Source of the DNA: a virus
Direction: 5' to 3' (one strand)
Virus record (IMG/VR): IMGVR_UViG_3300005825_000009
Coordinates: 1-44,907 of that record
Length of the DNA: 44,907 bases
Below are positions 2,533 to 44,907 of this stretch, one piece after another. A program made the position numbers and the translations under genes. The number at the start of each line of letters is the position of its first letter. The stretch's first letter is position 1. A model generated the notes under the pieces. It was not told the DNA's origin and ran no database searches. It saw only the letters and a list, made by a program, of their open reading frames with translations.

Positions 2533-3088
2533 TCGCATCATCGAGCTGGCAATTAAACCGGCGTACAGCATCCTGCCGCAGAGGATGAACACGCCAGATG
2601 CAACACGGATGCTCGTGGCAATTGCCTGGCAGGAATCACTGGCCAAATATCGCGTGCAGCGCCAAGGCCCGGCCGTTGGCTACTGGCAGTTTGAGCTTAA
2701 TGGCGGCATCCGTGGCGTATTGCGACACCCTGCGACAGCCACATTCGCAAAGGATGCGTTGCAGATACTAGATTATAACGTGCTAGCAAAAATGCGGCAG
2801 CCAGTGCGCACCTTAACGCCGCAGGATGACGAGTGCAAAAGCTGGGACGCGCTTATCTATGACGCGTTGCCATACGATGCGGTGCTGGCTGCCGTCTTTG
2901 CGCGTCTACTGCTGTGGACGTTACCGCTATCTCTACCGACCAAAACACAACCGCGTAACGCCTTCTTGCAGTACATAGATGCTTGGCGTCCAGGTGCCTA
3001 TACAAATGGCGATTCCGCGGAGCGCGGGGAAATCCAGCAGCGTTGGGACCGCAATTGGGACCTCGCCTGCATCCAGGTGCCGGAATGA
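2519..3088 (+). CDS. Lysozyme/transglycosylase-like protein, endolysin candidate
   Basis: A 189-aa protein. The ATG at 2519 is chosen because GGAG lies just upstream (about 2507-2510); an in-frame upstream start would overlap the zinc-finger gene almost completely. The segment AIAWQESLAKYRVQRQ, then GPAVGYWQFE about ten residues on, resembles the catalytic ES motif and the following G-x-x-G-[LY]-[MW]-Q strand of soluble lytic transglycosylase/goose lysozyme folds, with the Glu of WQES as presumed acid. The rest (LLWTLPLSLP, YIDAWRPGA) matches a recurrent phage lysozyme-like family. No signal peptide is visible, so export would need a holin; the two-helix protein at 2033 is the nearest candidate. 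The enzyme class is inferred, not proven. Confidence 0.72.
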   Translation: MIPTSRIIELAIKPAYSILPQRMNTPDATRMLVAIAWQESLAKYRVQRQGPAVGYWQFELNGGIRGVLRHPATATFAKDALQILDYNVLAKMRQPVRTLTPQDDECKSWDALIYDALPYDAVLAAVFARLLLWTLPLSLPTKTQPRNAFLQYIDAWRPGAYTNGDSAERGEIQQRWDRNWDLACIQVPE

Positions 3089-3297
3089 GTCGCCACATAT
3101 GCCAAACCTGTCGCTGGAGTCGGGCACTTGCGGGTTACTGCGTGTGCATACGTGTGTCGACCACACCGACGCCAGCGACAGCGGATGAAGTGGCCAGTCT
3201 CGTGCCGCTGTTCGTGCATGTCGCGTACCCAATCGTTGCCAAAGATGGCTGGTGCGCGGCCTGGCAACAGAGAACCGATAATCAGTCGCGTTATTGA
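3085..3297 (+). CDS. Small Cys-rich protein, unknown
   Basis: A 70-aa protein starting at an ATGA overlap (3085-3088) with the preceding endolysin candidate. The N-terminal half has CQTCRWSRALAGYCVC, four cysteines in a compact zinc-knuckle-like arrangement; a further Cys lies near the C-terminus (KDGWCAAW). Many small phage proteins share a 'C-x-x-C ... W' start of this kind, but none has a function I can name. The stop codon overlaps the -35 box of the promoter at 3294, so this gene ends the first early transcript. Confidence 0.65.
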   Translation: MSRHICQTCRWSRALAGYCVCIRVSTTPTPATADEVASLVPLFVHVAYPIVAKDGWCAAWQQRTDNQSRY

Positions 3298-3322
3298 CAT
3301 TTAGCGTGGACTGTGCTATACT
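3294..3322 (+). promoter_or_regulatory. Consensus sigma-70 promoter for RNA leader and replication genes
   Basis: TTGACA at 3294-3299 is followed after exactly 17 bases by TATACT at 3317-3322, with TGC directly before the -10 box (an extended -10). It is a near-perfect host sigma-70 promoter. Predicted transcription starts at about 3329, two bases before the GGGG that begins a long RNA helix. The -35 box overlaps the stop codon of the preceding gene. Confidence 0.88.
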
Positions 3323-3328
3323 AAAAAC

Positions 3329-3476
3329 ACGGGGTCGGTCACACTCGCCACTGGTTAATGTTGGGAAGTGTATAGGCGCCAGTGGCTGATAAATGGGTGT
3401 GATTGACCCCGCCTTATCTCCGGGAGTTGGCAGACCCCCACTTAGGGGCGTGTGTAAAAACCGCCCCTTCTTTTTT
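3329..3476 (+). ncRNA. Structured leader RNA or small ncRNA (16-bp plus 8-bp helix, then terminator)
   Basis: From the predicted transcription start the sequence folds into a long hairpin. Bases 3331-3346 pair with 3395-3410 (16 bp including three G-U pairs), and 3347-3354 (GCCACTGG) pair with 3379-3386 (CCAGTGGC), leaving an 8-nt one-sided bulge TGATAAAT and a 24-nt apical loop. A long helix broken by an asymmetric bulge is typical of RNase III processing sites in phage transcripts. Downstream lies an intrinsic terminator, and CCCCACTTAGGGG (3436-3448) can form a competing hairpin that would break it. GACCCC occurs both at 3405-3410 and 3433-3438, so GGGGTC at the 5' end has two possible partners. 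No open reading frame of note is present. It may be a free small RNA, an attenuator, or both. Confidence 0.7.
3444..3476 (+). terminator. Intrinsic terminator / attenuator
   Basis: AGGGGCG (3444-3450) pairs with CGCCCCT (3462-3468) across an 11-nt A-rich loop and is followed at once by TCTTTTTT (3469-3476). This is a strong rho-independent terminator only about 115 bases after the predicted transcription start and ahead of the replication operon. An outer pairing AGTTGGCA (3425-3432) with TGCCAACT (3476-3483) and the CCCC/GGGG alternative hairpin (3436-3448) could modulate it. Confidence 0.8.
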
Positions 3477-3510
3477 GCCAACTGCTGTTATAAACGTTAG
3501 GAGTACCGCC

Positions 3511-3561
3511 GTGTCGTCGAAACTTGGAAAGCGCAAATATGAAGAGGCACGCAACAGATGA
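3511..3561 (+). CDS. 16-codon leader peptide, translationally coupled
   Basis: A GTG at 3511 is preceded by TTAGGAG (3497-3503) at seven bases, the only good ribosome site after the terminator. It reads 16 codons (VSSKLGKRKYEEARNR) and stops at TGA 3559-3561, overlapping the ATG of the next gene in an ATGA junction. The coupling suggests that ribosomes entering here supply the next gene. It may be a real basic micropeptide or simply a ribosome loader. Confidence 0.5.
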   Translation: MSSKLGKRKYEEARNR

Positions 3562-3776
3562 ACAACGCGCCACCAGTGATTCATCTACCGATGTCGGAGA
3601 CGGACCATCGGCCAAAATGCACAGGCAGACAAGCGGCCGTGCTGCTGACGGCGCCTGGCATCTTTACCCAGAAAGAACGAATGGAACGTGCCAGTTGGAG
3701 CGACGGCCTGTCGCTAGTGTCAAGTCTCATAACTTGCCCAAAGTGCCGCAAGTTCTTGCCAACAACCGAGAAGTAA
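3558..3776 (+). CDS. Small protein with C-terminal CxxC motif, unknown
   Basis: A 72-aa protein that begins at the ATGA overlap with the 16-codon leader and has no ribosome site of its own. The C-terminus reads SLITCPKCRKFLPTTEK, a typical half zinc-ribbon; another cysteine (KCTGRQ) lies near residue 21. It ends two bases before the GTG of the next gene. A different frame is open over the same stretch from 3524, but its N-terminal part is Ser/Arg/Asp-rich and lacks a ribosome site, so this frame is preferred. Function unknown. Confidence 0.55.
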   Translation: MNNAPPVIHLPMSETDHRPKCTGRQAAVLLTAPGIFTQKERMERASWSDGLSLVSSLITCPKCRKFLPTTEK

Positions 3777-3778
3777 TT

Positions 3779-4117
3779 GTGCGCGTAAACGACAGGGCCA
3801 AAACAACGTTGCTTCGTTTCTTAAAGGAGGCGAAGCAAGATGTTGCGTGGTCATTCGAGTACTACGGCACGGAGCAAGAGGCCCGTGCGCAGGTACACAG
3901 AATGCGCGTCGAGCTTTCGCGCTTGCGTCAATTGGTGCGCGAGCACTACAAGCAGACGCCAGTGCCATTCCGTATGCTTGTAGTCAAACTGGACGAGCGC
4001 AACGTGCAAGACGCCGACGGCACAGTTACCGTCACTACGGTCTATCTGCAAAAGACGGGTGCCGAATTCAAACTGATGCGGGAGCTGACGCGCATCTTTG
4101 ACGAGATTTCCATATGA
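3779..4117 (+). CDS. Small helical protein, unknown
   Basis: A 112-aa protein. The GTG at 3779 lies two bases after the stop of the previous gene and fits the tight packing of this operon; the frame stays open to a TTG at 3524, but that would overlap another gene throughout. The sequence has a helical middle rich in Arg and Glu (EARAQVHRMRVELSRLRQLVREHY), then beta-like segments (FRMLVVKLDERN, TVTVTTVYLQKTG). It ends in an ATGA overlap with the next gene. It shows no known motif. The exact start is uncertain. Confidence 0.6.
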   Translation: MRVNDRAKTTLLRFLKEAKQDVAWSFEYYGTEQEARAQVHRMRVELSRLRQLVREHYKQTPVPFRMLVVKLDERNVQDADGTVTVTTVYLQKTGAEFKLMRELTRIFDEISI

Positions 4118-4668
4118 GTCTTTTGTCCAAGATAAAGACGCGGTCTGCCAACGCCTTACCGAAACCGGCAGAACAGCCATCCAGTACCAGTATTACAGAA
4201 ATGCTGAAGCAAGAGATGGCACGCACAAAAGGCGAAATTCCAATTACCGCGGGCTCCGCGCCTGCGACTATACCTGCCAAACCCTTACCCAAATCGCAGG
4301 AACCCGAAGTAGTAGCCAAGGCACTTGGCGAGTTAGTTGTTGAACCGGGCCAACTGCCAGATACATCTGAGACGTTGCAAGCAGCGATGGAGGAATTGCG
4401 CCATACGCTGCAAGAGTTGTCGGCCAACATCGACAGCGACCAAGTTTCCACCAATGTGCATCGCGCTATGACGTTCCTGCGCGGGCACCCAAGACTCGCG
4501 GACATGCTACGGCCGGAGGATATCGGCCTGCTAGTGCGAGCGTGCGCTAAAAGCGCCGGTCTGGTAGTTGGCAAGAAAACGGCCAACAAGGTGGCCAGGA
4601 CGAAGCGCCAAGAAGAGAGCGCTAAGCTTGCTGCGGAGATGAACATCGATGACTTGGATTTTGGCTAA
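4114..4668 (+). CDS. Unknown protein coupled to Cas4-like nuclease
   Basis: A 184-aa protein. The first half is Pro/Ser/Ala-rich and probably disordered. The second half (from about residue 85) is helical, with a conserved-looking block MTFLRGHPRLADMLRPEDIGLLVRACAK, and the end is charged (EMNIDDLDFG). It overlaps the neighbours at both ends (ATGA at 4114, TAATG at 4666-4670), so its product is likely made in fixed ratio with the Cas4-like nuclease. It could be an accessory subunit of that nuclease, an inference from gene order only. Confidence 0.75.
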   Translation: MSLLSKIKTRSANALPKPAEQPSSTSITEMLKQEMARTKGEIPITAGSAPATIPAKPLPKSQEPEVVAKALGELVVEPGQLPDTSETLQAAMEELRHTLQELSANIDSDQVSTNVHRAMTFLRGHPRLADMLRPEDIGLLVRACAKSAGLVVGKKTANKVARTKRQEESAKLAAEMNIDDLDFG

Positions 4669-5654
4669 TGGCCGGTTCACTGTATCCGCGCCTGCAACAT
4701 CTCCGTCTGTCACATAGCTCGAAGGTGACGTTTGACAGTTGCCCGCGTAAGCTAGAGTTCCGCAAGTTCTACAATCTAGCGCGGGTAAATGAGGCGTCAC
4801 TAGCTGGCAATGCCGGCAGCGCAATGCACGAAGGCTGGTACGAATGGCTGCGTACCAATGACGCCGATGCTGCACTATGGCGGATGATGCAGCATTATCC
4901 TATCGAGTTCCAGAAGTCTCCAATGGACCAGCGTTCACTTGAATGCTGTTTCATTACGTTGCAAGAGATGATGGCGTTTGAGGGCTTCGCCCATACAAAC
5001 ATTGCCAAGATAGCCGTGCCGCAAGCCGACGGCACCAGCGAAGAACGCTATGCTATCGAGGTGCCTTTTGAAATTTTCTTTGCGAATTTTTCGCTGGACG
5101 GCCGGTTCAATGAAGATGGCAGTCCATGCGTCCCTGTCTCTTGGATAGGGTACATCGACGCTATCCTGTACGACTTCTTCGCCAACAAGTTTATCCCCAT
5201 TGATGTAAAGACGACGACCAAAAACCTGTCCGATTATGTTCCCATGTTTGCCAACGATGCGCAGATGCTGCCATATGCGTTGGTCCTGGAAACTGTCACT
5301 GGACAGCATTTCGATGAGGTTGAAATCACCTACCTGTTAGCGTACATAGACGCGCTAATGCCAAAGGTCCGCCCGCTGACATTCAAACGGTCGCACGCAG
5401 ATGTAACCGAGTGGGCACAAGAAGCGGCACTGATGCTGCGGCAGTTACAGATGTTCTATACTGCCGGCTGGTTTCCACGCCACGGACAAAGTTGCGTCAA
5501 TTGGGGTATCTGCCCTTACTACCAATATTGCGAAACACGCGACCACGATTATCTCAATGCGTATTTTGGTACGAATGAGATGTTCGAGGAAGCGCAAAAA
5601 GACGATAGTTTCCAGCCGTGGTTTACCATGTCGTTGGAATTGGAAGGCTTGTAA
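4668..5654 (+). CDS. Cas4/RecB-like PD-(D/E)XK nuclease with putative iron-sulfur cysteines
   Basis: A 328-aa protein with the hallmarks of the PDDEXK_1/Cas4 family. An N-terminal cysteine lies in SHSSKVTFDSCPRKLEFRK (C25). GNAGSAMHEG supplies the conserved His (H54). The active-site core is D164 (YIDAILYD) and D179-V-K181 (PIDVKTTT), followed by a Q-x-x-x-Y segment (QMLPYALVLE). Three cysteines near the C-terminus (C276, C282, C288 in CVNWGICPYYQYC) complete the usual four-Cys cluster that holds a [4Fe-4S] centre. Such enzymes are DNA exonucleases that resect ends. With the Sak4-like ATPase (6853) and RecD-like helicase it suggests a phage recombination or replication-repair set. The TAATG overlap fixes the start. 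Confidence 0.88.
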   Translation: MAGSLYPRLQHLRLSHSSKVTFDSCPRKLEFRKFYNLARVNEASLAGNAGSAMHEGWYEWLRTNDADAALWRMMQHYPIEFQKSPMDQRSLECCFITLQEMMAFEGFAHTNIAKIAVPQADGTSEERYAIEVPFEIFFANFSLDGRFNEDGSPCVPVSWIGYIDAILYDFFANKFIPIDVKTTTKNLSDYVPMFANDAQMLPYALVLETVTGQHFDEVEITYLLAYIDALMPKVRPLTFKRSHADVTEWAQEAALMLRQLQMFYTAGWFPRHGQSCVNWGICPYYQYCETRDHDYLNAYFGTNEMFEEAQKDDSFQPWFTMSLELEGL

Positions 5655-5665
5655 GCTGCCAGGGC

Positions 5666-5893
5666 GTGAATGAGAAATACACAGGTCGCGCGTGCCGTTG
5701 GTGTGGCGAACGTGAACGCTATTCCAACGGCACTTGTGTTAGGTGCCAGAAGGCTGGTCGATACTCAGAGGCAAAGCAGCCAAATCGGCACGCCTTGTTG
5801 CTGCCGACACCGGATGCAATACGCGATTTGATTCCCAAGGATACGCAGCGGATAGAAGAGTTCATACGTCGAGGAAAGACATGGCCAAGATGA
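5666..5893 (+). CDS. Small zinc-finger protein
   Basis: A 75-aa protein starting at GTG 5666, 11 bases after the nuclease stop with AGGG just upstream; an earlier in-frame ATG (5618) would lie inside the nuclease gene. Residues 10-27 (CRWCGERERYSNGTCVRC) form a clear four-cysteine zinc ribbon. The C-terminal half is basic with a helix (DLIPKDTQRIEEFIRRG). This could be a nucleic-acid-binding protein; no family name can be given. It overlaps the next gene by 13 bases. Confidence 0.62.
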   Translation: MNEKYTGRACRWCGERERYSNGTCVRCQKAGRYSEAKQPNRHALLLPTPDAIRDLIPKDTQRIEEFIRRGKTWPR

Positions 5894-6432
5894 GCAACGA
5901 CCAGTTCAACGAAATGCTGCACCAGTTGATACAGGAAGAACGTGCGCGTCAGTTGCTTACCAGTGACCCAGAACGCGCAGCCGAGGAACTGGCACTGCGT
6001 GAGGCGCGAGATTCCGTAGAGAATCAGCTTGTCGTTATGGCCGCCGAGCAGCGCACGATAATGCACAAAGGCAAGAAACGCTATGGCGTATTCCGCTTCC
6101 CGCTTTTCATCGGTTTCCAGGCGCCCGATGGCTTTCTTACGCCACGTCGCGAGAGCCATGCATTGTTCATGTACAATGCTGCTGGCTGCCGAACGTATGA
6201 AAATACAGTCAAGGATGTAATTGTATACGAAGGTGATAAAGACCCAGTTGCTAACTTTCGCCAATTATTCGAAGGCGTTGCCAGGCTGTACGGCGTAAAG
6301 CCGCATGTCATGGCGAAGTTCTGGCCGCAAGTGGACAAGCAGTGCGAGGCCATTGGCTATTCTGTACTGCCAAACGAAGAGCAATACCGTTTCAATCGCG
6401 TGCCAGAAATTTTCATAGGAGACAAGCAATGA
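5881..6432 (+). CDS. Unknown replication-operon protein
   Basis: A 183-aa soluble protein. The ATG at 5881 has GAGGAAAG a few bases upstream. The N-terminal third is a charged helix (QFNEMLHQLIQEERARQLL, then ERAAEELALREARDSVE), the remainder looks globular with Tyr and Phe (RYGVFRFPLFIGFQAPDGFL). No motif is recognised. It is translationally coupled to the following gene by an ATGA overlap (6429-6432), and both lie between the Cas4-like and Sak4-like genes, so they may serve the same pathway. Confidence 0.78.
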   Translation: MAKMSNDQFNEMLHQLIQEERARQLLTSDPERAAEELALREARDSVENQLVVMAAEQRTIMHKGKKRYGVFRFPLFIGFQAPDGFLTPRRESHALFMYNAAGCRTYENTVKDVIVYEGDKDPVANFRQLFEGVARLYGVKPHVMAKFWPQVDKQCEAIGYSVLPNEEQYRFNRVPEIFIGDKQ

Positions 6433-8857: not shown

Positions 8858-8873
8858 TCCGCTAATTGCGGAG

Positions 8874-8904
8874 GACCGGGTGTCAGTTGGCACCCGGTCT
8901 TTTT
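8874..8904 (+). terminator. Intrinsic terminator after the SSB candidate
   Basis: GACCGGGTG (8874-8882) pairs perfectly with CACCCGGTC (8891-8899) around an 8-nt loop and is followed by TTTTT (8900-8904). This 9-bp GC-rich stem with a U-tract is a classical rho-independent terminator. It splits the rightward replication block into a recombination half and a polymerase half; no consensus promoter is visible just after it, so downstream genes may depend on readthrough. Confidence 0.9.
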
Positions 8905-9153
8905 ATGCTGCTACTGCGCGTCCATCCACCGCTGTGCAAGTTCGTGCTCTTTGGCAAGGGTAGCGAGGAGTTTGATTTAGACTGCGTCGTTATCTTTACC
9001 AAAGAGATAGACAAGCTGTCTGCACTGGCCTACTTCGGTATCCTGGAGCGACTGACAAAATGTGTGAAGCAAAACAATCCCGCACGAATACTTCATTGCG
9101 AGGAAGGGCTAAACTCACGCTTGTCCTCTCGCTCTTCACCCCTAATCAGTTAA
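8905..9153 (+). CDS. Small protein, doubtful, directly after terminator
   Basis: A possible 82-aa protein whose ATG directly abuts the U-tract of the terminator at 8874-8904, with no ribosome site. Its first two thirds look protein-like (CKFVLFGKGSEEFDLDCVVIF, then LSALAYFGILERLTKC). The last 30 residues overlap the next gene in another frame and look like noise (LNSRLSSRSSPLIS). It may be a decayed or truncated gene. Kept at low confidence because nothing else explains 8905-9060. Confidence 0.38.
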   Translation: MLLLRVHPPLCKFVLFGKGSEEFDLDCVVIFTKEIDKLSALAYFGILERLTKCVKQNNPARILHCEEGLNSRLSSRSSPLIS

Positions 9154-10080: not shown

Positions 10081-12588
10081 ATGAGACCGCAGCCGTTGTC
10101 AAATGACACCTGCCTGTATCGGCGGATTACGGTGTTGACTACTAATCGCTTCAGCGAGAAGCTACGTAGTTTGCAAATAAAGTATTTCCGCAAGGCGCGT
10201 GTGCCGGCGATGCTCACAAGCTATCACGCGCTGACCGTTGGCTGCCAGAAGAAAGTTGGCAAGAAGAAATACGTGCCGGACGAGAGTAAGCGCGCGGAGT
10301 TCTTTGCGCGCCTCCGCAATGCCAAACCAGACTTCATCATCGTGCAAGATGCGGTTGCGCTATACTACCTAACGGGTAAGCACAGCTTGCATCTCTGCCG
10401 TGGCTGCGTCTACGCGTGGGAAGGTATCCCTGTATTTGTCTTGGTACCCATCGTGCAAGTTGTCATGCGTGGCAACGTATACACACCGTGGGTAATGCTA
10501 AAGGATTTACACAAACTGCGGAGGTGGCTCTATGGCGAACAACGACCCCAACCAAGATTTCGCTATCAAGTGTGCCGAACGCTTGCTGAAGTCGAAGCCG
10601 CCAAAGAATCAGCAGCGACATGTCTATGCTTGGCAATTGATGTGGAGACAATCGGAGCCGGGTACACCGCTACGATTAGTTGCACGGGTATCGCCGGATG
10701 GCATCGTGACGGAAGCATATCTGTGTGGGTCATCCCGTGGTATACAGGGCATAGTGAGGGAGGCAAACCATTTTGGCCAAGTGCGGATGTGGAAGCCCGA
10801 GTACGTACAGAGGTAGCCGCACTACTTGATAACTCAGTGCCAAAGGTAATGCAAAATGGCTTGTATGATTCCACCTACTTCGTGCGGGAGAACATGCCCG
10901 TACGTAACTGGTGGTTGGATACAGCCGTGGCGTTCCACGCGGTCTGGCAACAAGCGCCAAAGCGCCTCGACTTCATCGCGAGTATCTGCTGTGACTACGT
11001 GCAATACTGGAAGGATGAAGGCAAAAGCGTCGAGAACGCCAAAGAAGATGTGAAAGTCGGCACGCTACCGACAACCGAAAAAGGCATGGAGCGGTACTGG
11101 CGATACAACGCGCTAGACTGCTACTACACGCTGGTCTCCGTCCCGCCAATAATGTCGCTCATCGCTAAGCAGGACTGGGCGCTCATTAACTACAAGAAAG
11201 AAATTCGCCAGTTTACCGGCCCGAGTCTGGCAATGTCAACACGGGGCATCCGAGTCAACCACGCGATAAAGACAAAGCTAGAGTTCGATAACCACGCCGA
11301 GTCTGCCGAGCAGTTGGAAATACTGCGGACGATGGTAGCCACTCCAGAGTTTAATCCCAACTCCAATCAGCAAGTTGCCGAGTTGCTGTATGATGTACTT
11401 GGTGCGAAGGCATTGCCGAGGAAGGGCAAGACTGTAGATGAGAAGGTGTTAAAGGTTATCCAAACCCAGCACCCACTGATTGCCCGCATCGTTGAGCAGA
11501 TATGGGCGACAAAGAAACCCGCCAACAACGTCAGCAAGTATGGCAGTTCGCTGCGGCTTTACAATGACCGCCTGCTATTCACGCTAAATTCCACTGGCAC
11601 CAAGAATGCCAGATACAGCAGCAAGAACAGCAACCTGCATGTCGGCACCCAAATTCAAAACGTCCCCTATGCAATACGTGTAATGCTGGAGGCTGACCCA
11701 GGTTACGTGCTATTCGAGCGGGACTATGCCCAGTCAGATGGCTACTTCACTGCATTCCATGCAGATGAGGAAGCGTACATCGCCAACTTGACAGGGGATA
11801 AGGACGCACACTGCGTCCATGCGGCGGAGTTCTTCCGCCGCAAATATGAAGATATCTACGCGGGCTATGTGGCGGAGGAACCTTGGGTGGTCGATTCCAC
11901 TAAGGGTGTCCGCCAGATTACAAAGCGTGTCACATACGGCGCCAACTATCTGATGATGGCTTACACGCTTTTCATTACGATGGGACGGCAATCTGTCGTG
12001 GCTGCGGCGCAACAACTTGGCTATGATAAGGCCGGTAACTGGGATTTAAAACGCTGCGTGAAGTTCTGCGAATATCTTCTGTGGGTGTATTTCAATAAGC
12101 TCTATCGCGGTTTGCGCCCGTGGATTGAGACAGAAATTAAAACGGCGATTCGGCATAATAATCGCGCTACTTGCATTGGCGGCTATACACGCACATTCTT
12201 TGGCGACATGGCGAAGGACGACACGGTGCATCGAGACTTGGCCGCATTCTTTGGGCAGTCCGGCACGGCTTGTAATATCAACGAGGCGCTAGAGAATATC
12301 TACTACAGTGACTGGGAAAAGCGCGGCGGTATCTTGCTATTCCAGGTGCATGATTCCATCATCGGGCAGGTACCAATTGACAAGCTGGAGCTAATTGAAG
12401 AAGTGGGCGGCATGATGGCCAACGAACGTGTAGCGCCATCTGGTAAAAAATTCGTTGTACCCTCCGAAGCTAAGGTGGGTATAGGTTGGGGTAAGCGGAT
12501 GATGCCGTTTACCCCCGGTATAACCTTCGCCGAGATAAAAGCCCATGATGACGCTTGGCAGGCGAAGTTCTTTGCTGTCGAGGAGTGA
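10081..12588 (+). CDS. polA: DNA polymerase I family replicative polymerase with 3'-5' exonuclease
   Basis: An 835-aa family A polymerase without the 5'-3' nuclease domain. After a roughly 170-residue N-terminal region of unknown role, the DEDDy proofreading site is complete: AIDVET (D187, E189), VMQNGLYDSTYF (N259, D263) and YNALD (Y342, D346). Polymerase motif A is FERDYAQSDGY (D548), where the usual DYSQIELR has Ser-Asp in place of Ile-Glu. Motif B is RQITKRVTYG (R611, K615, Y619), with Tyr at the position of E. coli F762, as in T7 polymerase. Motif C is QVHDS (H757, D758), Ser replacing the usual Glu. It is likely the main replicative enzyme. GGAGG (10069-10073) precedes the ATG; dNMP kinase follows four bases after the stop. 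Confidence 0.95.
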   Translation: MRPQPLSNDTCLYRRITVLTTNRFSEKLRSLQIKYFRKARVPAMLTSYHALTVGCQKKVGKKKYVPDESKRAEFFARLRNAKPDFIIVQDAVALYYLTGKHSLHLCRGCVYAWEGIPVFVLVPIVQVVMRGNVYTPWVMLKDLHKLRRWLYGEQRPQPRFRYQVCRTLAEVEAAKESAATCLCLAIDVETIGAGYTATISCTGIAGWHRDGSISVWVIPWYTGHSEGGKPFWPSADVEARVRTEVAALLDNSVPKVMQNGLYDSTYFVRENMPVRNWWLDTAVAFHAVWQQAPKRLDFIASICCDYVQYWKDEGKSVENAKEDVKVGTLPTTEKGMERYWRYNALDCYYTLVSVPPIMSLIAKQDWALINYKKEIRQFTGPSLAMSTRGIRVNHAIKTKLEFDNHAESAEQLEILRTMVATPEFNPNSNQQVAELLYDVLGAKALPRKGKTVDEKVLKVIQTQHPLIARIVEQIWATKKPANNVSKYGSSLRLYNDRLLFTLNSTGTKNARYSSKNSNLHVGTQIQNVPYAIRVMLEADPGYVLFERDYAQSDGYFTAFHADEEAYIANLTGDKDAHCVHAAEFFRRKYEDIYAGYVAEEPWVVDSTKGVRQITKRVTYGANYLMMAYTLFITMGRQSVVAAAQQLGYDKAGNWDLKRCVKFCEYLLWVYFNKLYRGLRPWIETEIKTAIRHNNRATCIGGYTRTFFGDMAKDDTVHRDLAAFFGQSGTACNINEALENIYYSDWEKRGGILLFQVHDSIIGQVPIDKLELIEEVGGMMANERVAPSGKKFVVPSEAKVGIGWGKRMMPFTPGITFAEIKAHDDAWQAKFFAVEE

Positions 12589-39434: not shown

Positions 39435-39767
39435 GCGCGAAGCGCACCTTACGCATTGCGGTTGGCGCAGCCAGAGCAATGTGCTGAGCCACGGAACGTG
39501 GCGGGCAAGATAGGCACACAGTGCCACAACGCGCGCGACAGCGAGTTGCGAGGCAGGATGCCGAGCCCGCTAATGGCAGGACACAGGACGTGTCCTGCCA
39601 ACCTTTGCGAGCGAAGCGAGCTAATCAACAAGAACGCTTTACGCGAGTGTACTCACGAAGCGCTGTGCCACCACAGGTGGCAGATATTACGTCGCGAAGC
39701 GACACATTGAAAGCGAGCGAAGCGAGCGCGCCGCGGAATGAGAATCATTCGCATTGGCAAGTGCCAA
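39435..39767. repeat. Cluster of perfect hairpins with GAA and ACA triloops
   Basis: At least nine inverted repeats are packed into 333 bases without a credible gene. GAA-loop hairpins: 39435-39445 (GCGC stem), 39488-39502 (GCCACG stem), 39691-39703 (GTCGC stem), 39736-39750 (GAATGA stem). ACA-loop hairpins: 39513-39525 (GGCAC stem), 39666-39682 (TGCCACC stem). Others: 39574-39600 (11-bp stem TGGCAGGACAC), 39754-39767 (TTGGCA stem). A 15-base sequence GCGAGCGAAGCGAGC occurs twice, at 39607-39621 and 39713-39727. DNA of the form GCGAAGC is known to fold into unusually stable mini-hairpins. The whole 39132-39814 stretch holds only this cluster, the promoter at 39217 and the terminator at 39765. 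It may be a replication or packaging site or a structured RNA. Confidence 0.75.
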
Positions 39768-39800
39768 AAAAGGGCGCGTAGCCGTTGCAGCCACGCGCCC
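39765..39800 (-). terminator. Terminator of the short leftward early operon
   Basis: GGGCGCGT (39772-39779) pairs with ACGCGCCC (39793-39800) around a 13-nt loop. On the minus strand the stem is followed by TTTTTT (complement of the A-run at 39766-39771). It lies 15 bases after the stop of the gene at 39815 and so closes the operon 41192-39815, insulating it from the structural promoter. Confidence 0.88.
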
Positions 39801-39814
39801 CAATGGTTGGCGGT

Positions 39815-40066
39815 TTAGCGGCCGTCGTCCATGCGCGCCGCGTCACGCGGTTGCGGCCAGTCGTCAGCCGTCACTCCTGCCGCGATGAGTCGGCACAGGT
39901 GCGCAAGTACTAACGCGTTTCGCGCGTACGCGGCCGTACCTCTGTGGGTAGCTTCGAGTCGATGCACGGCCGCTACGAAACCGCGTTGTGCGGCTACCGT
40001 GGGCGACACGTGGAACGCGGCCAGCAACAACGCGTTTTTGGCGTTGATGTAATCGGGGGTGTCCAT
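39815..40066 (-). CDS. Small Ala-rich early protein, unknown
   Basis: An 83-aa protein. ATG 40066 shares its A with the stop of the previous gene (TGATG); a GTG at 40069 is an alternative. The protein is helical and Ala-rich (YINAKNALLLAAFHVSPTVAAQRGFVAAVHRLEATH, in parts) with a short basic and acidic end (RDAARMDDGR). No motif is recognised. It is the last gene before the terminator at 39765. Confidence 0.7.
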   Translation of the reverse strand: MDTPDYINAKNALLLAAFHVSPTVAAQRGFVAAVHRLEATHRGTAAYARNALVLAHLCRLIAAGVTADDWPQPRDAARMDDGR

Positions 40067-41339: not shown

Positions 41340-41368
41340 AGTATAGCGCCAATCGCGGGCCGTGTCAA
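41340..41368 (-). promoter_or_regulatory. Consensus sigma-70 promoter, leftward early
   Basis: On the minus strand TTGACA (complement of 41363-41368) and TATACT (complement of 41340-41345) are exactly 17 bases apart, the same boxes and spacing as the promoter at 3294. The predicted start is near 41333, where an ATG in frame with the 40374 gene begins. A GATC site (41324) lies about ten bases downstream of the start. Confidence 0.88.
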
Positions 41369-43886: not shown

Positions 43887-44907
43887 AATTCAACTTTGGC
43901 AACGACGACAACGGCGGCGACAACGGCGGTAGCAAACCGGCCGAGCCGGCCGAGCCCGCTAACAAGGCGAAGCCGACATATGCCAATTTCACCGAGTTAC
44001 TAGCGGCCAGGCTAGTCGAGCACGGCATGTCAGTAGATGATGTGCAAATCATCGGACTGGTCACAGAGACAGCTGGCGAACAGGTTGAAGCGCCAAAGCT
44101 ACCGCCCGCCGTGGAACGCAAGCCCGCCGCCAAGTTGCAACTGCGGCCGGCCGCAACGCCCGCGGATAAGAAACCCTCCCCGCTGTTGGCAAAACTGCAG
44201 GCCAAGCACAAGGCGCCGGCGCGTGACGAGCCTATCAAGCTACGCGGCACCGGGTTGACAAAGCGACTCGGCGAGCAATTGCAGCGTGCGGCTGATAAAG
44301 CCGAGGCACCGCCGCCCGTCGAACATACGGATGAAGAGCGCGAGCAAATCATCGAAACGGCGCGGAAGGAACACCTGACGTTCATCGAAGCGCACAAACT
44401 GCCAAGTCAAATCCGCAGCGATGTGGAACTGGACGAATCGCAGTTGCAGGCCGTCGACGGCTTGTCTCGCCAAATGTACGGCTGTCTTATCGGGGCGGCT
44501 GGTACGGGCAAAACAACGACCGTCCGCGAGTTAGTCGCCCGTATGGTCGGCAACTTGCGAGAAATTGATTTGAACAGGGCGCGGAAGGAAAATATGCGCA
44601 CTACGCGGCCGGAGATAATGCCGGCGATGTGTTTCGTGTCCTTTACCGGCAAGGGTGTGCAGCAAATAAAGCGCAATCTGCCAAAAGAATACCACGCGCT
44701 TTGCGACACCGGTCACGGCACACTTGGCTACACTGCCGTGTACGAAGAGCGCTACAACCACAAAACAAAAGAAACGCGAATGGTCCGCGTATTCGTGCCG
44801 ACGTTCACCGCTGCCAATAAACTCCCGTACCAGATTTGCTTTATCGATGAAGCCGGGATGATGCCAAACTGGTTATTTAACCAGATTGTCGAAGCGCTGC
44901 CGGATGA
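43883..44907 (+). CDS. RecD-like SF1B DNA helicase, N-terminal part (continues at position 2)
   Basis: The ATG at 43883 overlaps the previous stop (ATGA). The first 200 residues are a low-complexity, Ala/Pro/Lys/Asp-rich tail (FGNDDNGGDNGGSKPAEPAEP) with several LQLRPA-like patches, possibly for partner binding. The helicase core begins at about residue 180 with SDVELDESQLQAVDGL (Q-motif-like) and the Walker A GAAGTGKTTT (G204 to T213, K210). CFVSFTGKGVQQIKRNL (motif Ia) follows. The gene runs off the end of the window in frame into position 2, giving 697 aa in total. The Walker B and motif III-VI signatures lie in the other part. Confidence 0.93.
   Translation, partial: MKFNFGNDDNGGDNGGSKPAEPAEPANKAKPTYANFTELLAARLVEHGMSVDDVQIIGLVTETAGEQVEAPKLPPAVERKPAAKLQLRPAATPADKKPSPLLAKLQAKHKAPARDEPIKLRGTGLTKRLGEQLQRAADKAEAPPPVEHTDEEREQIIETARKEHLTFIEAHKLPSQIRSDVELDESQLQAVDGLSRQMYGCLIGAAGTGKTTTVRELVARMVGNLREIDLNRARKENMRTTRPEIMPAMCFVSFTGKGVQQIKRNLPKEYHALCDTGHGTLGYTAVYEERYNHKTKETRMVRVFVPTFTAANKLPYQICFIDEAGMMPNWLFNQIVEALPD
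44788..44907. repeat. Terminal redundancy, copy 2 (circle junction)
   Basis: Identical over all 120 bases to positions 1-120. See copy 1; the duplication is a contig-end overlap inside the helicase gene, which shows that the genome closes on itself. Confidence 0.95.

Follow-up and report, generated by a model that had tools for sequence, protein, structure and literature searches.

We identified a structured RNA element in an uncultured podovirus-like phage, where it separates the replication operon from that operon's conserved promoter; the operon encodes a PD-(D/E)XK nuclease, Sak4 and SSB. The element displays both properties of a terminated leader: it follows the genuine promoter of the downstream operon, and it carries a putative intrinsic terminator ahead of the first gene. 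From this arrangement we propose, with moderate confidence, that it encodes a promoter-proximal, intrinsically terminated leader RNA of approximately 146 nt that would limit entry into the operon. An added role of this RNA in trans is possible.

The window, namely the whole stretch of DNA that was analysed, is the IMG/VR virus record IMGVR_UViG_3300005825_000009, of 44,907 bases. Its two ends carry an exact direct repeat of 120 bases (1-120 identical to 44788-44907), which indicates that the genome was apparently assembled as a circle. A block of plus-strand genes runs from about 41.7 kb to the record end and on to 16.3 kb, and the remainder is mostly on the minus strand. The plus-strand block encodes a helicase, a PD-(D/E)XK nuclease, a Sak4-like annealing protein, an SSB-like protein, a DNA polymerase and a primase/helicase (the helicase and SSB being named from their position and from the annotation in relatives). 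At the protein level, the nearest named relatives are the Pseudomonas phages of the PaP2/119X/PaMx41 group, Polaromonas phage Tiera and EBPR podovirus 3, with 22-31% identity; IMG/VR contigs are closer, still distant, with about 31-50% identity in single proteins. We found no prophage relatives in bacterial genomes, and no tRNA or tmRNA. The features of the element and of the operon behind it, all on the plus strand, are as follows.

3085-3297, plus strand: small upstream ORF of 70 aa, with its TGA stop within the -35 hexamer
3294-3322, plus strand: sigma70 promoter TTGACA-17-TATACT with a TGn extended -10 (motif; same gene position in relatives)
3329, plus strand: predicted transcription start, placed 7 nt past the -10 from the promoter position
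3330-3346, plus strand: 5' arm of the 17-bp basal helix, pairing with 3395-3411 (folding)
3347-3355, plus strand: 5' arm of the 9-bp upper helix, pairing with 3378-3386 (folding)
3356-3377, plus strand: apical region of 22 nt with a weak 3-bp inner stem (folding)
3378-3386, plus strand: 3' arm of the upper helix (folding)
3387-3394, plus strand: one-sided 8-nt bulge, TGATAAAT (folding)
3395-3411, plus strand: 3' arm of the basal helix (folding)
3425-3483, plus strand: outer inverted repeat AGTTGGCA...TGCCAACT flanking the terminator, predicted to pair only in read-through RNA
3436-3449, plus strand: transient CCCC/GGGG mini-hairpin, a competitor of the terminator (stepwise MFE folding)
3444-3476, plus strand: putative intrinsic terminator hairpin and U-tract, TTCTTTTTT (GGGGCG..CGCCCC stem; folding; Aeromonas phage similarity)
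3511-3561, plus strand: 16-codon GTG ORF with an AGGAG Shine-Dalgarno sequence, its stop overlapping the next ATG
3558-3776, plus strand: ORF of 72 aa, part of the insert, of no known family and with no homologue in relatives
3779-4117, plus strand: first conserved operon gene, with an RMRVELSRLR motif; the homologues in relatives lie directly behind the promoter
4668-5654, plus strand: PD-(D/E)XK (Cas4/RecB-like) nuclease gene (family assignment)
8870-8908, plus strand: terminator with a 15-bp helix, located after the SSB-like gene; L002 and PaMx41 have counterparts

The promoter combines a -35 hexamer TTGACA (3294-3299) and a -10 hexamer TATACT (3317-3322) across a 17-nt spacer, matching the consensus at 11 of 12 positions, and a TG lies one base 5' of the -10 (TGcTATACT). 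Two sites in the whole window reach this score, the other being on the minus strand at 41368, inside an ORF. To place the promoter in its phylogenetic context, we turned to homologues of the gene at 3779, for which an iterated HMM search returned 27 matches, leaving 22 relatives usable for upstream comparison. TTGACA was found near the start of the homologue in 14 of the 22 (counted if at most 130 nt upstream of the first ATG or no more than 20 bases into the ORF), whereas random positions in these contigs would be expected to give 1.24. The full pattern TTGACA-17-TATAAT occurs in L066 and L080, TTGACA-17-TATACT in L064, and L133, additional to these 14, shares CTGTGCTATACT with the window. 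Furthermore, the -35 overlaps the TGA stop of the upstream ORF at an identical offset in the window and in at least six relatives (L066, L068, L074, L077, L083 and L098). The conserved position and this shared overlap argue that the promoter is the operon's own; it is very probably real and old, judging by these comparisons. The consensus promoter reported in the initial annotation was thus borne out, both as a motif and by its place ahead of the same gene in relatives.

What separates the window from its relatives is the stretch behind this promoter. In the promoter-bearing relatives the leaders are short and unterminated, with usually 15-51 nt between the end of the -10 and the ATG, whereas in the window 188 nt separate the -10 from the GTG at 3511. 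None of the 22 relatives has a comparable leader terminator or long leader hairpin at the syntenic place (L069 holds one weak leader candidate, which appears unrelated). Searches with a single-sequence covariance model gave no convincing copy of the RNA in 62 sources, the best other match being the terminator locus of Aeromonas phage LAh_6, and none in the whole records of 26 relatives. Similarly, blastn of the RNA against phages and plasmids recovered the terminator in Aeromonas phages and, apart from that, short chance matches. Exact-pattern scans, viral contigs included, returned nil or two matches, whose surroundings held no hairpin and which we read as chance. Given the lack of a leader terminator in the 22 relatives and of an RNA copy in the 26, the hairpin-terminator unit is, on these comparisons, a lineage-specific insert that separates an old promoter from its operon and may or may not include the small ORF. 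The relatives, with the same promoter and no such leader, thereby provide a natural before/after comparison. The RNA could also be neutral, since no homologue was found.

The insert is exceptionally structured. Hairpin 3330-3411 is one 82-nt stem-loop beginning at position +2 of the predicted transcript, with an MFE of -45.5 kcal/mol against a shuffled mean of -24.0 (z -6.3; reached by 0 of 200 shuffles). The initial annotation had described two stacked helices of 16 and 8 bp with an 8-nt bulge; the helices and the bulge are there, and each helix is one pair longer than stated (17 and 9 bp). The 17-bp helix exceeds in length every other helix on either strand of the window, and no helix of at least 17 bp arose in 25 dinucleotide shuffles of the window. 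Folding the region 3325-3490 as a whole, the check proposed alongside that description, likewise gave a strongly structured RNA (-80 kcal/mol, z -5.8, 0 of 200 shuffles), as far as folding predictions go, which leave out kinetics and protein binding. Codon scores are negative in all three plus-strand frames across about 3270-3510, revealing no coding signal there.

Behind the hairpin, the proposed intrinsic terminator found support in a hairpin of -15.6 kcal/mol (z -4.6) with a U-rich tail. Aeromonas phage LAh_6 and its kin share its sequence at 29 of 31 nt (E 1e-3), at a place where two genes converge, and this location supports 3444-3476 being a working terminator. An automated terminator scan missed the site, probably owing to the scan's 8-nt loop limit. 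Stepwise MFE folding of the growing transcript showed the 5' hairpin to be complete by 3411 and unchanged afterwards. The competing CCCC/GGGG hairpin of the initial annotation was recovered as a transient structure, appearing at about 3450 and giving way by 3470, and the terminator is present in the MFE fold of every transcript from 3470 on. Past the terminator and still ahead of the first ORF, at about 3486-3494, we observed TGTTATAAA, an extended -10-like sequence without a good -35 (a partial internal promoter).

The sequence GACCCC does occur twice, at 3405 and 3433, and it had been suggested that the 5' GGGGTC could switch between the two. Re-pairing of GGGGTC (3331-3336) with GACCCC (3433-3438), however, gave a fold 7.7 kcal/mol less stable in which the terminator hairpin was unchanged, so this switch would not regulate termination. 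Neither the stepwise nor the switched MFE folds offered a second structure able to control the terminator, so that regulation, as opposed to constant damping, is at most a possibility. A classical switching attenuator or riboswitch is not supported either, as the MFE analysis yielded no alternative fold that removes the terminator. The attenuator suggested in the initial annotation gains support, this switch apart, from the operon's conserved promoter and from a terminator that stands between promoter and genes in this lineage only.

In the model we favor, the conserved sigma70 promoter of the nuclease-Sak4-SSB operon would start an RNA at about 3329, and the nascent RNA would fold immediately into the 82-nt hairpin, leaving almost no single-stranded 5' end. 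Most polymerases would be released at about 3475, yielding the short leader as a stable RNA. The replication genes would then be reached only by read-through polymerases, coming from the promoter at 3294 or from the upstream early region, and in the transcripts of these polymerases the outer repeat (AGTTGGCA/TGCCAACT) would close around the terminator. Such an element would lower and delay the operon and halt early transcription arriving from upstream. The strength of termination, the stability of the RNA and the effect on the operon are here what we infer from sequence.

A strong promoter, a structured leader, a terminator and an operon in succession form a layout known from lambdoid phages, where the pR'-6S RNA-tR' late leader of lambda has relatives in P22, 21 and 82. 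By analogy, this appears to be the closest layout to ours, sharing the strong sigma70 promoter, the short non-coding leader RNA, the intrinsic terminator and the operon behind it. The operon here serves replication and recombination, whereas that of lambda comprises the late genes, and a 26-bp hairpin starting the transcript is not known from the lambda arrangement. The early proteins that we scanned with PHROGs included no recognisable antiterminator of the Q type, Q proteins being diverse. The earlier impression that no described RNA family has this layout holds for Rfam 15, in which no family scored above its gathering cut-off in the entire window (the best score over the RNA was suhB, with 17.4 bits against a cut-off of 41, spanning only the 3' part, 3411-3482), but not for the general layout, given the lambdoid examples.

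Several other readings of the element deserve consideration. It may be a phage small RNA that acts in trans from a borrowed operon promoter, its apical loop or linker pairing with host or phage mRNA, with the operon living on read-through. We see this as a possible, if unlikely, explanation: the strong promoter of its own, the stable fold and the U-tailed terminator are in its favor, and phage small RNAs of like size are known (PMC12197685). These include PreS/LPR1 and OOP of lambda, which resemble our element in being short phage RNAs (PMC12197685); ours brings a promoter and a terminator of its own. The promoter here, however, is a conserved operon promoter used in cis, and the RNA matched no family and was conserved in no relative searched. 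Moreover, no target was found: comparing loop, linker and bulge with the phage's own translation starts revealed no pairing clearly above random control sites.

Alternatively, the hairpin might bind RNA polymerase and act as an RNA antiterminator like put of phage HK022, such that transcripts from its own promoter pass the terminator and those from an upstream early promoter stop. This would explain a terminator ahead of essential genes. The put RNA antiterminates, and it engages the zinc-binding domain of the RNAP beta' subunit. Its putL form lies just downstream of PL (PMC9378689), as our hairpin lies directly behind its promoter and ahead of a terminator; in both cases a structured RNA immediately behind an early promoter precedes phage genes that follow terminators (PMC9378689). 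Yet put comprises about 70 nt with two stem-loops (PMC9378689), as opposed to the one 82-nt stem-loop here, followed by a linker and the terminator, and we detected no similarity to a known family. Transcripts from upstream would carry the hairpin too, and sorting them would thus need a promoter-linked effect. We consider this antiterminator improbable. A bolder version, a new class of protein-free control in which a single bulged hairpin at the 5' end acts on the host RNA polymerase to decide read-through and so time the replication genes, seems to us quite improbable as well. If read-through is controlled, the element would be a compact phage timing element, possibly an RNA-only control of the polymerase beside that of put.

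The early region of T7 holds the RNase III sites R0.3-R1.3, which are intergenic bulged hairpins. Our element shares with them the intergenic position in a phage early region and the two stacked helices with a bulge, and a helix of about 26 bp with a bulge between genes is structurally compatible with RNase III processing; in addition, PaMx41 also has a long hairpin just 5' of its polymerase gene. A processing site or an mRNA-protecting hairpin of this kind, with an ordinary terminator behind it, nevertheless has a low probability in our judgement: the hairpin differs from the T7 sites in opening the predicted transcript at its 5' terminus with a terminator behind it, and processing there would free no upstream message made from its own promoter. 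Finally, the site could be a plain terminator that keeps early and middle transcription apart, and the hairpin a by-product with no role of its own. Insulation would require no more than the terminator, and the hairpin lacks conservation; nonetheless, the absence of helices of 17 bp or longer from the 25 shuffles and a hairpin that begins one base past the predicted start make this account very improbable. The terminated leader remains the reading we favor.

At the far end of the operon, the terminator at 8870-8908 is matched by one after SSB in L002 and by one after the corresponding gene in PaMx41, and is a probable conserved operon end.

Other structured elements were observed in this phage group. 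In L084 (2489-2620), a TTGACA-17-TATACT promoter directly precedes a leader, about 80 nt long, that ATAAGCTAG/CTAGCTTAT closes; lying in front of a different gene, it is a second structured leader in the group. The hairpin of PaMx41 (L006; 12553-12668), just 5' of the DNA polymerase gene, has 13 perfect pairs (TTAGTCCTCTCCC/GGGAGAGGACTAA) that an additional, imperfect stem encloses; it has no terminator and is a candidate processing site. The same phage carries two similar intergenic elements at about 5890-5950 and 10600-10660 (GGGGGTTGCA(C/A)ATTTTGCAAT...), which include promoter-like sequences and an upstream GGGG repeat that can pair with a downstream CCCC; one of them is an annotated terminator. 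In the window itself, the GC-rich stretch 39480-39870, at the left end of the minus-strand gene block, is dense in strong hairpins, and a 14-bp terminator-like stem lies at 39801-39771 on the minus strand.
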